Source: Azonexus sp.
GTDB taxonomy: Bacteria > Pseudomonadota > Gammaproteobacteria > Burkholderiales > Rhodocyclaceae
Assembly: GCA_017983755.1 (NCBI GenBank)
Contig: JAGOAU010000010.1
Location: 1 to 64,000, forward strand
Length of the DNA stretch: 64,000 nucleotides
Reading direction: 5' to 3'
Shown: piece by piece, positions 51,266-59,046 of the stretch
How positions within the stretch are numbered: the stretch's first letter is position 1
Layout: the number at the start of each line of letters is the position of its first letter
The notes under the pieces: model-generated
The model's database searches: none
Seen by the model: only the letters and a program-made list of their open reading frames with translations
Told to the model about the DNA's origin: nothing
Translations under genes and position numbers: made by a program

Positions 51266-53422
51266 TCAGTACTTCACGCGGGCAAAGAAGGTTTTCTCGG
51301 AGGCTTCCAGCGCCTGGCGCACGGTGACAATGCCCTTTTCTTCCAGCAGCGGCACCAGCTTGAGGAACACCTCGGCGGTCGCCAGGGAATCTTCCAGCGC
51401 GTTGTGACGGCTCTCGATATGGATGCCAAGGCGCTCCAGGATGACATCCAGCTTGTGCGACTCCTGGTTGGGATGGACGACCGCCGACAGCAGCAGCGTA
51501 TCGAGCACCGGCTGCGAGAATTTCACCCCGGTGCGTTCCTCTTTGAGCTGCAGGAAACGCATGTCGAACGCCGCGTTGTGGGCGATCAGGACCGTGTCCT
51601 CGCAGAATTCGTGGAAGGCCGGCAGGACGATGTCGATGTTCGGCTGACCGCGCACCATGTCCTCGGTGATGCCATGGATGGGAATCGACTCCGGCTTCAG
51701 CGGACATTCCGGGTCGACCAGCTGGTTGAAGATTTCCTGGCGCAGCAGCCGGTTGTTGACGATGCGCGCGGCCCCGATCTGGATGATTTCATCGCCCTTG
51801 GACGGCTCCAGGCCGGTGGTTTCGGTGTCGAAGACGGTGTAGGTCAGTTCGCTCAGCTTGCGGTCGAGGTCGATCGACTTGTCCTCGAACTTGAACAGGT
51901 CGAAGTCGTAATACTCCGGCCGGTTGCTGCCGCGCGAGCTGTCTTCGTCATGGCCGGCTTCCGGCGTCGCCACCGGCAGCACGAAGCGGAAGAAGGCGCG
52001 GTGCGCCGCCTTTTCGCGCTGATACCAGATCTCGCCGCCGTGGCGGTCGATGACATCGCGCAGGCTGAGCGGCGAGGTCTCTCCGGCGGCATGCATCGAC
52101 TCCATTTCCCAGGTATAGAAAGTCTCGGACGACATCGCCGGGCCGGCCCAGATCAGGTCGAGGTAGGCAAGCTTGCCTTCGGCGGTCAGGCGGAAGCGCA
52201 ATTCGCGCGGCTCGTAGTGATCCTGCAGTTTGGACGCCAGGAAAACCAGTGCGAAGACCAGCGAGAAGCTGTCGGCCTTGATCCACAAGGCATCGTCCAG
52301 TTCCTCGGTCTTGGTCGGCAGCTTGAGCTTGTCCTCGATTCGGCGCTGGGCCGCCGCGATGACGTCGATGCCGAGAATGTCCTCGAGCGGCCAGCGCGTC
52401 TTCATCGAGTGCGAAAACTCGGCCATCGTCTGGTCGACGCTTTGACCGCGCTTGGCGACCTCCTCTTCGATCACCCGCAGGAAACGTTCGCGCAACTCCG
52501 GTTCCATGTCCGGGTAATCGATCAGGTTGGTCACGGCGGCCCGGATGTTGCCCAGCGCCGACCGGCTGCCTTCGGTCATCACGTGCAGCAACTGGTCGCG
52601 GTGGGCTTCCTGCTCGATGCTGCGGGTAATGTTCTCGACCGTCAGCACGTAGCCGGACATCGCCGCCTCGCCCTCGCCCGGCGCTGCCAGGACGGGAACC
52701 ATCTGGATGCGCAGGAGCTGGCCGCCGCGCGTGGTCGTGATGAAGTTGGCCATCGCCGTCTTGCCGGTGGCCACGCGCTGACGAATGACTTCCTGTGCGT
52801 GCTGCACCTGGTTCTTTTCCAGAATCGAAAAAATCGAACGGCCGAGGCCGATCAAGGCGCCGCCGGAAACCGAGGTCGGCCCTTGCGCCAGCGCCTTGAA
52901 CTGCAGGCGGGCGCGGTTGTTGTAGAGCAGGATGCGGCCATCGAGGTTGCAGACGACAACGGCCTGGGCCAGTTCCGACATCAGCGCCGCCAGCCGGTTC
53001 TTTTCTTCTTCGACCGAGGCCTTGGCCATGGCGATCTGCGCATCGACATCGTCCATCAGTGCATCGCGCTGCTGCGCCAGGTCGTTGGCGGCGCGCGCCA
53101 GTTGCTGCACCTCTGGCGGGCCTTCGATGGTGACCCGGAAATTGCGGTTGGCCCCCAGCATCAGGCGCAGGGTCTCGGCCATGCGCAACAGCCCCTCGAC
53201 GTACTGCTTGAACAAACGGTGCAGGACCAGCACGCCGACGACGAAACCGAACAGCGTCATCATGGTGCCGACCGGCAGGCGCGAGACCAGCAGCTCGGTC
53301 AGCATCTGGCGCTCGCCCTCCTTCATGTCGAGCCAGACCAGCAGCGAGGTGACGACGAAGGGGCCGGTCATCAGCAGACCAAGCACGACGACAGCGAGGA
53401 TGAAACGGTGTTTTGCCTTCAT
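51266..53422 (-). CDS. membrane sensor-like degenerate kinase fused to a DnaQ exonuclease
   Basis: A 718-residue fusion. Two N-terminal helices (about 5-30, 48-68) and a HAMP-like helix lead to a PAS domain (about 145-275, VVVCNLDGRILLYNNRARLQF). A kinase-like part follows in which the H-box is replaced by LLHVMTEGSRSALGNIRAAV, with no His-Glu-Leu-Arg, and the ATP motifs are weak. From about 525 it is an intact DEDDh exonuclease: VFDTETTGLEPSKGDEIIQI, LIAHNAAFDMRFLQ and HNALEDSLATAEVFL. ATG 53422 is chosen. An upstream extension would run through a dispersed repeat. It follows the CheY-like gene in the operon. Confidence 0.83.
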   Translation of the reverse strand: MKAKHRFILAVVVLGLLMTGPFVVTSLLVWLDMKEGERQMLTELLVSRLPVGTMMTLFGFVVGVLVLHRLFKQYVEGLLRMAETLRLMLGANRNFRVTIEGPPEVQQLARAANDLAQQRDALMDDVDAQIAMAKASVEEEKNRLAALMSELAQAVVVCNLDGRILLYNNRARLQFKALAQGPTSVSGGALIGLGRSIFSILEKNQVQHAQEVIRQRVATGKTAMANFITTTRGGQLLRIQMVPVLAAPGEGEAAMSGYVLTVENITRSIEQEAHRDQLLHVMTEGSRSALGNIRAAVTNLIDYPDMEPELRERFLRVIEEEVAKRGQSVDQTMAEFSHSMKTRWPLEDILGIDVIAAAQRRIEDKLKLPTKTEELDDALWIKADSFSLVFALVFLASKLQDHYEPRELRFRLTAEGKLAYLDLIWAGPAMSSETFYTWEMESMHAAGETSPLSLRDVIDRHGGEIWYQREKAAHRAFFRFVLPVATPEAGHDEDSSRGSNRPEYYDFDLFKFEDKSIDLDRKLSELTYTVFDTETTGLEPSKGDEIIQIGAARIVNNRLLRQEIFNQLVDPECPLKPESIPIHGITEDMVRGQPNIDIVLPAFHEFCEDTVLIAHNAAFDMRFLQLKEERTGVKFSQPVLDTLLLSAVVHPNQESHKLDVILERLGIHIESRHNALEDSLATAEVFLKLVPLLEEKGIVTVRQALEASEKTFFARVKY

Positions 53423-53438
53423 GGCGGGCATCCGTAAT

Positions 53439-53470
53439 GGATTTCGGGCAATTGCGGCCGTCGACCGCAA
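53439..53470 (-). repeat. dispersed TTGCGGTCGAC repeat, copy before the kinase-exonuclease gene
   Basis: On the minus strand from 53470 the sequence is TTGCGGTCGACGGCCGCAA, a six-base stem (TTGCGG/CCGCAA) with a seven-base loop, then TTGCCCGAAATCC. It fills most of the 61-base gap between the CheY-like gene and the kinase-exonuclease gene, so it lies in their shared mRNA. Confidence 0.65.
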
Positions 53471-53483
53471 CAGGGTGGCGATA

Positions 53484-53852
53484 TCAGCGAGCCAGCATTT
53501 CCTTGACCTTGGCTACCAGATCCTTGGTCGAAAACGGCTTCGTGACATACGCATCGGCGCCGAGCGCCAGCCCCTTGGCCACTTCGGTGTCGCGTCCCTT
53601 GGCGGTCAGCATGACGATCTGCAGGCCGCTGCGTCCCGGGTCGGCGCGCAGCGCCTCGCAGACTTCGAAACCCGACTTCTTGGGCATCATCACGTCGAGC
53701 AGCATCAGGTCGGGATTGAAGCTGGCAACCTTGGCCAGCGCCTCCTCGCCGTCGTTGGCGACAGCGACCTCGAAGCCTTCCTTCTTCATCAGGAATTCGA
53801 GTGAAATGACGATGTTCGGCTCATCGTCAACGATCAGGATCTTGTGCGCCAT
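53484..53852 (-). CDS. CheY-like single-domain response regulator
   Basis: A 122-residue receiver domain: HKILIVDDEPNIVISLEFLM at the start (Asp9, Asp10), phospho-Asp in LMLLDVMMPKKSG (about residue 53), Thr in IVMLTAKG and Lys in DAYVTKPFS. There is no output domain. It is the probable partner of the SSS-type kinase encoded just upstream. In CrbSR/MxtR-ErdR systems the regulator is LuxR-type, so the output path here must run through another protein. GGGAGA fixes ATG 53852. The frame reaching 53963 lies inside the kinase gene. Confidence 0.9.
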   Translation of the reverse strand: MAHKILIVDDEPNIVISLEFLMKKEGFEVAVANDGEEALAKVASFNPDLMLLDVMMPKKSGFEVCEALRADPGRSGLQIVMLTAKGRDTEVAKGLALGADAYVTKPFSTKDLVAKVKEMLAR

Positions 53853-53865
53853 CTTTTTGTCTCCC

Positions 53866-56577
<2,712 letters not shown>

Positions 56578-56772
56578 CTATTTCCCCCGCCGCTCGGCGA
56601 CCATTGCCGCCAGTGCGATGAGCAGCGTCCACACGCCGAAAAGATAAAGGTAAGACGCCGGAATTCCGGCGATTTCCCCGGTCGGCAAGCTGAGCAACGG
56701 ATAGGTCAACAAGGGAATACCGAGCAGGCCGAGCGCCGCCAGACGCTGCCGCATCGGATTTGCACGCTTCAT
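56578..56772 (-). CDS. small two-helix membrane protein preceding the SSS kinase
   Basis: A 64-residue protein with helices LAALGLLGIPLLTYPLLSLP and SYLYLFGVWTLLIALAAMVA, and a basic C-terminus AERRGK. Similar small genes accompany SSS-type sensor kinases. The ATG overlaps the leader ORF's stop by ATGA and has GGGAG in front. Its own stop TAG directly abuts the TTG start of the kinase. It may assist folding or sensing of the kinase's transporter domain. No family function is known to me. Confidence 0.75.
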   Translation of the reverse strand: MKRANPMRQRLAALGLLGIPLLTYPLLSLPTGEIAGIPASYLYLFGVWTLLIALAAMVAERRGK

Positions 56773-56876
56773 GCGCTCCCCCCGGAAAAGAAAACGGCCG
56801 ACACGCCAAGCGTGCCAGCCGTTGGTGGCATGCAGTCTGTTGCGACCACACGGGAGGTCACCTTATGGGCGACCAT
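56769..56876 (-). CDS. 35-codon leader ORF with near-perfect Shine-Dalgarno
   Basis: A minus-strand frame of 35 codons (starts MVAHKVTSRVVATD; ends VFFSGGSA). AAGGAGG lies five bases upstream of ATG 56876, closer to the ideal than at any other gene in the window, and the stop overlaps the ATG of the next gene (ATGA). The middle to end of the frame (56793-56823) is also an intrinsic terminator stem followed by T-rich sequence. Translation through the stem would open it, which is the layout of a translation-controlled attenuator. No family is recognised. Absence of rich codon bias for one amino acid argues against classic amino-acid attenuation. Confidence 0.6.
   Translation of the reverse strand: MVAHKVTSRVVATDCMPPTAGTLGVSAVFFSGGSA
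56785..56823 (-). terminator. terminator hairpin inside the leader ORF (attenuator candidate)
   Basis: On the minus strand AACGGCTGGCACGC and GCGTGTCGGCCGTT pair over 14 bases with two G-T wobbles and a three-base loop, followed by TTCTTTTCC. It lies within codons 18-31 of the leader ORF and before the small membrane gene. It could attenuate read-through from acs into the sensor operon. Confidence 0.65.
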
Positions 56877-56901
56877 TGTCTCCTCCTTGCCTTTATTGGT
56901 T

Positions 56902-56930
56902 GGAGGCGGCGTGGCAAGCTCGCCGCCTCC
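56902..56930 (-). other. perfect ten-base hairpin between acs and the leader ORF
   Basis: GGAGGCGGCG and CGCCGCCTCC pair perfectly around a nine-base loop. It is 27 bases after the acs stop and 14 bases ahead of the leader's AAGGAGG. Its CCTCC arm could instead pair with the GGAGG of that Shine-Dalgarno, so it may act as a switch. Confidence 0.5.
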
Positions 56931-56956
56931 TTGGCTGATCAGGAAAACCGGGGGAA

Positions 56957-58918
<1,962 letters not shown>

Positions 58919-59046
58919 ATTCTTCTCCTCTGCGGTACTTCGCAATTATGTTGAAACAACCGATCGGATCTCGGGTAGGCACCCGGGACTGTTTAAAGCC
59001 GCACAAGCTGGAGAAAAACCACTCCCCTCGCCAGCGTTGAGGCGGC

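Follow-up and report, generated by a model that had tools for sequence, protein, structure and literature searches.

A conserved leader with a likely translation-dependent attenuator between acs and a CbrA/CrbS-like sensor operon in Azonexus and its relatives

Between the acetate--CoA ligase gene acs and a sensor kinase operon of an Azonexus sp. (minus strand of a 64,000-nucleotide stretch of contig JAGOAU010000010.1, hereafter the window) we find an RNA element that is conserved, and well beyond chance. Judging from sequence and its comparison among relatives, we consider it likely that the element is a translation-dependent transcription attenuator of a pyrL-like kind. Our best reading is that ribosome-mediated attenuation would here be joined to start/stop coupling with a probable pseudoknot as the gate, and that this combination is new; we know of no system that unites an attenuator leader, stop/start coupling and a pseudoknot.

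The genes and the leader frame are arranged as follows.

56957..58945, minus strand: acs, acetate--CoA ligase, the upstream gene whose transcript would enter the element (NCBIfam TIGR02188, 966.5 bits against a cut-off of 724.95; also found by Pfam)
56882..56888, minus strand: Shine-Dalgarno sequence AAGGAGG of the leader frame, followed by the five bases AGACA and then ATG
56769..56876, minus strand: leader frame of 35 codons, stop and next start overlapping as ATGA, translation MVAHKVTSRVVATDCMPPTAGTLGVSAVFFSGGSA
56578..56772, minus strand: membrane protein gene, 64 aa, CbrX-like by position and size, with homologues in relatives
53866..56577, minus strand: sensor histidine kinase with an SLC5-STAC half, CbrA/CrbS-like, 903 aa (10ed_A match; HisKA, HATPase_c)
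53484..53852, minus strand: single-domain response regulator (Pfam Response_reg), probable start MAHKILIVDD chosen by eye, the listed reading frame opening upstream at 53963

The gap from the end of acs to the start of the leader frame is 80 nt (minus strand), the TGA of the leader overlaps the ATG of the small membrane gene as ATGA (56772-56769, minus strand), and the TAG stop of the membrane gene directly adjoins the TTG start of the kinase. The 35-codon frame, its AAGGAGG, the five-base spacer and the overlap are thus all present on the minus strand where the initial annotation had put them. The 64-aa membrane protein has no match in Pfam or NCBIfam. Downstream, beside the response regulator and in the same direction, lies a gene for a 734-aa protein (51266-53470, minus strand), whose C-terminal domain is a DnaQ-like exonuclease and whose long N-terminal part matches nothing in Pfam.

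Residues 7-571 of the kinase align to PDB 10ed_A (5.3e-74, or 2.6e-73 for the N-terminal part alone), the SLC5-STAC structure of Pseudomonas CbrXA (PMC13022988), and Pfam finds HisKA and HATPase_c in the protein but no transporter family, even at E 10. The protein has an SLC5-STAC half fused to a kinase, as is the case in the SLC5/STAC sensor kinases CbrA and CrbS. CrbS is described as a hybrid kinase, a term by which we understand a kinase that carries a receiver domain itself. No receiver domain was found in the 903-aa kinase, and a separate one-domain regulator follows instead, so the protein is CbrA/CrbS-like and not a proven CrbS; it does not belong to CrbS in the strict sense. The earlier description of the locus as "CrbS-type" is therefore apt for the fused SLC5-STAC half and does not hold for the receiver domain. 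As regards a link to acs control, known for CrbS with a CrbR-type regulator, what we have here is adjacency to acs alone.

In the 5' to 3' direction the element consists of hairpin H1 with the loop CUUGCC, an A-rich linker, GGCAAGGAGGAGACAAUGG, hairpins H2 and H3, and the terminator T. H1, H2, H3 and the putative pairing at the flank of the Shine-Dalgarno sequence were not part of the initial annotation.

56902..56930, minus strand: hairpin H1, GGAGGCGGCG..CGCCGCCTCC, 26 nt past the acs stop, -20.7 kcal/mol
56913..56918, minus strand: loop CUUGCC of H1, 5' strand of the putative pseudoknot helix, proposed from pairing across relatives
56886..56891, minus strand: GGCAAG, 3' strand of the putative pseudoknot, overlapping the first bases of the Shine-Dalgarno sequence
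56856..56874, minus strand: hairpin H2, GGUCGCC-CAUAA-GGUGACC, beginning at the G of the AUG, -10.4 kcal/mol
56829..56852, minus strand: hairpin H3, inside the leader frame, -10.7 kcal/mol
56793..56823, minus strand: T, intrinsic terminator stem-loop inside the leader frame, 14 bp of which 9 are G-C, loop of 3, -23.9 kcal/mol
56784..56792, minus strand: U-rich tail of T, TTCTTTTCC

For the 46 pairs as a whole, pairing holds in 95.8% of cells and two-sided changes occur in 14 pairs, a number that none of 500 shuffles reached. Control structures slid along the alignment were paired in 30.5-50.2% of cells; the +3 slide also gave 14 two-sided pairs, but with 21 such cells against 49 and with 50.2% paired, and the slid versions are at a disadvantage, since the window sequence served to draw the structure. 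The hairpins differ in this respect: H1 covaries strongly (two-sided changes in 8 of 10 pairs, 87.4% of cells paired, 27 distinct sequences), H2 and the terminator less (2 of 7 pairs and 98.9% for H2, 3 of 14 and 99.5% for T), and H3 barely (1 of 9 pairs, one-sided changes in 6, 94.6% paired). Between the acs stop and the next start the RNA has a folding energy of -98.7 kcal/mol against a shuffle mean of -72.3 kcal/mol (z -5.5, equalled by none of 200 dinucleotide shuffles), and the leader alone folds less distinctively (z -3.2, 2 of 200 shuffles). The exact 19-mer GGCAAGGAGGAGACAATGG is present in 55 of the 66 loci whose start site was found by script. A nested-pair model puts the pairing of the first codon's G at about 90% after H2 is made.

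The putative pseudoknot CUUGCC/GGCAAG is paired in 99.4% of cells with no two-sided change in any of its six pairs within the genus. All six pairs can form in 61 of 65 evaluable loci (G590 was left out because of a contig edge), five in two loci, four in one (G595) and none in G004; by inspection, G595 also reaches six if the register is moved by one base. In genus g86 the loop reads CUGCC and its partner GGCAG, i.e. other letters on both strands, and what covariation there is comes from this genus and from wobbles. We regard this pattern as suggestive of a pseudoknot at the Shine-Dalgarno flank, although it is not proof. The layout would be of the H-type, with 9-10 bp of H1, the loop strand, and then 20-25 nt (the 3' arm of H1 and the A-rich linker) up to the Shine-Dalgarno flank. 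Such a layout, together with the altered letters of g86, invites the idea that a riboswitch-like pseudoknot, responsive to a metabolite or a protein, controls translation of the leader and hence termination. We hold this to be very improbable, as most unpaired bases of H1 and of the linker vary among relatives and there is no match to an Rfam family at its cut-off. In known aptamers, unlike in the H1 and linker described here, the unpaired bases are not mostly variable. We nevertheless speculate, as a doubtful but attractive extension of the attenuator, that the H1-loop pseudoknot might truly be a sensor, set by some small molecule, protein or small RNA that is linked to acetate or energy status; initiation at the leader, and hence termination within it, would then report the metabolic state to the acetate sensor operon. 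If true, a pseudoknot switch would here have a translated terminator for its output.

Within the leader frame T starts at nucleotide 54, and its end lies 20 nt before the next start; the stem, which had been predicted from the sequence as a 14-base fold with a T-rich tail, occupies codons 18-28 and the tail extends to about codon 31. A simple terminator scan of 6 kb gave 4 sites against 4.4 in shuffles, and since this count is no higher than in shuffles, conservation is the better test of T; the stem is indeed conserved, as given above. No antiterminator kept across the alignment was seen by eye. The candidate TGCCA/TGGCA is not kept in relatives, and pairing of the Shine-Dalgarno sequence with CCUCC, considered as a second switch, is lost in several of them (both by eye). 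The scan showed no promoter-like site between T and the start of the membrane gene. A hidden promoter in the H1 loop and linker was dismissed as well: TTGCCA resembles a -35 box, but in several relatives CAAGGG stands at the -10 position (by eye), and the scan is empty there. Synonymous-site entropy in the 3' half of acs gave no consistent dip indicative of a promoter (26 of 46 sequences passed the filters, with 5-15 usable sites per bin and two low bins at 0.17 and 0.37).

The selection acting on the leader frame can be judged from its changes among relatives. By parsimony, codons 2-17 of the leader changed 30, 25 and 29 times at the three codon positions (41 sequences with a first segment of equal length), as compared to 69, 65 and 156 in 40 codons of acs (39 sequences, 2 of which are one codon out of register so that these counts are somewhat inflated) and 236, 123 and 554 in the membrane gene (40 sequences). 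Stem sites of the leader change less than unpaired ones (1.26 vs 2.85). The leader has no codon-position bias and its peptides differ between genera, and we have discarded the idea of a conserved leader peptide; conserved regulatory codons, as in attenuators of the amino-acid type such as trpL, were looked for in the same data and are not apparent. Of the two signs that the initial annotation had proposed to look for in relatives, codon conservation did not materialise; as to stem covariation, the terminator inside the leader has two-sided changes in 3 of 14 pairs.

What is kept is the frame. Among the 74 loci examined, a start site was located in 66 by script and additionally in G581. Sixty-four loci have a start of the next gene, and the stop/start overlap is retained in 53 of these: 51 as NTGA, one as TGATG and one recognised by inspection (G582, with GTGA at the usual place, which was used thus in the distance test). 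In the remaining 11 loci the stop is within 5 nt in 3 and placed otherwise in 8. The gap from stop to start is 0 nt in G600, 1 nt in G028 and 5 nt in G604; the leader stops past the next start in G025, G032, G020, G023 and G011, has only 4 codons in G004 and 15 in G062, and is in frame with the next gene in G206. The 15-codon leader of G062 (L041) stops just before the terminator stem, not through it. In the tree neighbours L205 (G603), L025 (G028) and L206 (G591) the tails from T to the next start measure 75, 74 and 24 nt, with NTGA still present in G603 and missed by one base in G028.

The distance from the leader start to the next start is 2 modulo 3 in 54 of the 64 loci, where permuted tails give 38.0 (none of 20,000 permutations as high), kinship being ignored; if each of the 25 distinct length combinations is counted once, 15 are at 2 modulo 3 against 10.5 (p 0.0245, kinship again ignored). 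On the tree, parsimony gives 8, 4 and 13 steps of modulo-3 change in the three segments and 10 in their sum. Examples of compensated indels are eight genomes that are one base shorter before a 29-base T and have tails of 19, 22 or 25, not 21 or 24, and three genomes whose T has 28 bases and whose first segment is of the usual length, two of which have a tail of 22; in the third, G025, the tail is 21 and the overlap is missed. Both members of g86 have frames, of 39 and 41 codons with different peptides, that end in TGATG. Frame disruption that is not compensated, which the initial annotation had named as evidence against its reading, does occur, in 10 of the 64 loci, which are scattered on the tree save for the neighbours G206 and G011.

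A few genomes serve as natural exceptions. In G581 a deletion has removed T and the start of the membrane gene, so that leader codons 1-17 are joined in frame to what is left of the gene; the kinase can be aligned from end to end (903 residues). In G587 (L213) a remnant of the kinase (residues 849-886) is all that is left of it, there is no match to the membrane gene, and the ATG of the leader reads ACG; acs is kept, and so is, by eye, the start of the response regulator. G602 (L208) retains kinase residues 852-903 alone and acs, and no membrane gene was found. In the latter two the sensor kinase has apparently been lost, and the three cases together fit a leader that serves the downstream genes; note that all three are draft assemblies of many contigs and that the deletion in G581 could be an assembly error. 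A different type of exception is seen in L030 (G010), L031 (G015) and L214 (G021), where the leader start is absent, a T-like stem with a T-run is kept between acs and the membrane gene (by eye), and the kinase frames are open (903, 934 and 909 aa, respectively).

Since there is no codon bias, the case for translation is made by the frame statistics and these few natural cases, from which we conclude that the leader is probably translated. The proposal that a translated leader is coupled to the small membrane gene thus gains support from evolution, namely from the 53 of 64 overlaps, the compensated indels, the fusion in G581 and the ACG in G587. Selection looks to keep the act of translation, i.e. 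the start, the open frame and the stop/start overlap, and not the peptide, the natural deletions acting as internal controls.

The same observations bear on the idea that H1-H3 and T form a stable regulatory RNA, derived from the 3'-UTR of acs and released by termination, in which the frame would be incidental or secondary. Strong nucleotide conservation, the conserved hairpins and the intrinsic terminator would all suit a small RNA, as would the fact that GGCAAGGAGGAGAC is nearly invariant across loci. In the Rfam 15 search of the window region nothing reached a curated score, the best match being the small RNA family Xoo2 (RF02241), with 23.3 bits against a gathering cut-off of 45 (E 0.14 in 2.8 kb, 0.012 in 251 bases). 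At about half the cut-off we reject membership in this family, which the paper describing it reports in X. oryzae only; eight loci searched against Rfam likewise gave 0 matches at the gathering score. An origin as a small RNA leaves the frame kept up to the overlap, the in-frame fusion in G581 and the lost ATG of G587 all unexplained, and it appears to us quite unlikely.

According to the attenuator mechanism, which we favour, transcription leaving acs would run through H1, the leader start site, H2, H3 and T. If no ribosome were loaded, T would form and the RNA would end as acs mRNA with a structured 3' end; a ribosome passing through codons 18-31 would prevent or melt T, so that RNA polymerase could continue, and the ribosome would then stop on the overlap and re-initiate at the CbrX-like gene, a step in which the conservation of frame and overlap is the observed part. 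The pseudoknot, reaching into the Shine-Dalgarno sequence, and H2, reaching into the AUG, would limit ribosome loading, and the sensor operon would thus get a small, gated share of acs transcription. The peptide would be irrelevant and the act of translation would matter. Alternatively, partial relief might simply set the ratio of enzyme to sensor. Because the terminated leader RNA has no stop codon in most loci, its translation would be expected to engage ribosome rescue.

Published data suggest that relief of T so near the start would be weak: in E. coli, translation relieved a terminator 30 bp after the AUG by ~10%, and most of its efficiency was kept (PMC4824070). For this reason a pause or slow RNA polymerase must be assumed; H2 and H3 could serve as pauses, and leaders of the pyrBI type are described as using pausing (PMC4824070). 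The small effect of ribosomes on a terminator early in a frame (PMC4824070) also speaks for a simpler account, in which T is a plain acs terminator with leaky read-through and the sole role of the leader frame is to bring ribosomes to the membrane gene, i.e. coupling without attenuation. Overlap coupling alone accounts for the frame, the CbrX-CbrA coupling is described as translational (PMC8871633), T is kept where the leader start is absent (G010, G015, G021), and L178 of genus g68, which lacks a leader, shows by eye a comparable stem with a T-rich tail immediately ahead of the membrane gene. This L178 and the weak covariation of H3 led us to give more weight to the simpler account and slightly less to the attenuator, against which we also count the stricter permutation that reaches only p 0.02, the 11 of 64 loci without the exact overlap, and the three genomes just named. 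However, a coupling frame need not cross a terminator, and wherever the frame reaches the overlap it has T within it; moreover, H1, the pseudoknot and H2 are left unexplained, and we judge read-through with coupling alone to be unlikely. If the attenuator mechanism holds, it would show how, within a single operon, a terminator gated by translation sets an enzyme apart from its own sensor. The element, compact and conserved, would also be suited to testing coupling over very short leaders, for which little effect is expected from published data.

The attenuator model can be compared to known systems. In pyrL-pyrBI of E. coli the leader frame also spans an intrinsic terminator, and the hairpin is kept from forming when ribosome and RNA polymerase are tightly coupled (PMC5021804); our locus has a frame of translated appearance through an intrinsic terminator, translation being deduced from frame statistics and natural cases, but the genes and the signal are others, the frame here would have a pseudoknot and a start-codon hairpin before it or at its opening, and it ends on a stop that overlaps the next start. 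In bmrB-bmrCD of B. subtilis the logic of a terminator in a frame is the same: a short frame contains the terminator and must be translated if downstream transcription is to be efficient (PMC4191407). Yet there 119 bp separate the end of BmrB from bmrC, and the system employs a predicted antiterminator and ribosomes slowed by drugs (PMC4191407), whereas no kept antiterminator is seen here by eye. In cbrX-cbrA of Pseudomonas a small frame for a two-helix membrane protein overlaps the start of the SLC5-STAC kinase, and its full translation is needed for translation of cbrA (PMC8871633). The likeness lies in the small membrane gene before an SLC5-STAC kinase, which here matches the CbrXA structure 10ED, and in an overlap kept in relatives, as expected of translational coupling; the difference is that there the small gene itself couples to cbrA, whereas here an extra leader and terminator precede the small gene and acs lies upstream. 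Finally, the H-type pseudoknot translational riboswitches (preQ1, SAM/SAH, SAM-V), as they are generally described, resemble the proposed structure in that the loop of a hairpin pairs with a strand further downstream, at the Shine-Dalgarno sequence or close to it, but the present element has no Rfam match, most of its unpaired bases are variable, and a ligand for the pseudoknot is only hypothetical. Among the matches listed for the open-licence literature, papers on CrbS and a survey of attenuators included, we found no description of an attenuator at acs or CrbS loci, in line with the initial annotation, which knew of none at loci of the CrbS type.

As to its distribution, a DNA search of 60 genomes (the source genome included) matched 30, all of one genus. 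A covariance model, R1, built from 28 aligned sequences, matches 69 of 76 genomes of this genus (Azonexus/Dechloromonas) and 50 of the 51 good ones. The leader start site is present in 65 of these 69, being absent in G010, G015 and G021 and replaced by ACG in G587. In four of the 7 genomes without R1 there is no kinase, in G002 and G024 the kinase is at a contig edge, and the membrane gene of G007 is cut off by the end of its contig. In a search of 249 genomes of the family, R1 is, outside the genus, strong in G062 and G071 (two genera) and weak, with matching layout, in G235 and G296 (one genus); in 300 genomes of the order nothing outside the genus scored above 34 bits, the order- and family-wide searches having used stricter filters that lose weak matches. 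Ten loci with weak matches outside the four genera were inspected (L044-L048 and L062-L066), and these look like chance terminators by eye. No second copy was found in the source genome, which is ~74% complete, the second R1 match being the same terminator on the other strand. Of 53 database records with an exact 19-base motif, 47 carry R1 (45 whole, 2 cut), and the titles of these name Azonexus or Dechloromonas in 30 cases and higher taxa only in 17; the other 6 are titled as members of Bacteroidota, Firmicutes and Campylobacterota. Strain records carrying the element belong to Dechloromonas agitata, D. hortensis, D. denitrificans and Azonexus hydrophilus.

Thirty loci of the family have the kinase, and a leader is present in 8 of them; none is seen in 2 loci of g68 or in 15 loci of other genera (both by eye), and 5 loci of g46 have a different element. 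TATAAT precedes the membrane gene in 9 of the 15 leader-less loci of other genera and in none of the other 15 loci, among which are the 8 that bear the leader. In 10 of those 15 leader-less loci acs is just upstream, and 7 of these 10 have a T-run of five or more. The intergenic region between acs and the membrane gene of the g46 loci (L176, L177, L179, L180, L182) contains the different element, with GGAGGAGGGTGG between its arms; L176, L179 and L180 have no Rfam match. Its arms seem to covary (GAAGAAC/GTTCTTC and others, by eye), and between them and the membrane gene lies a GC-rich hairpin that has a T-run.
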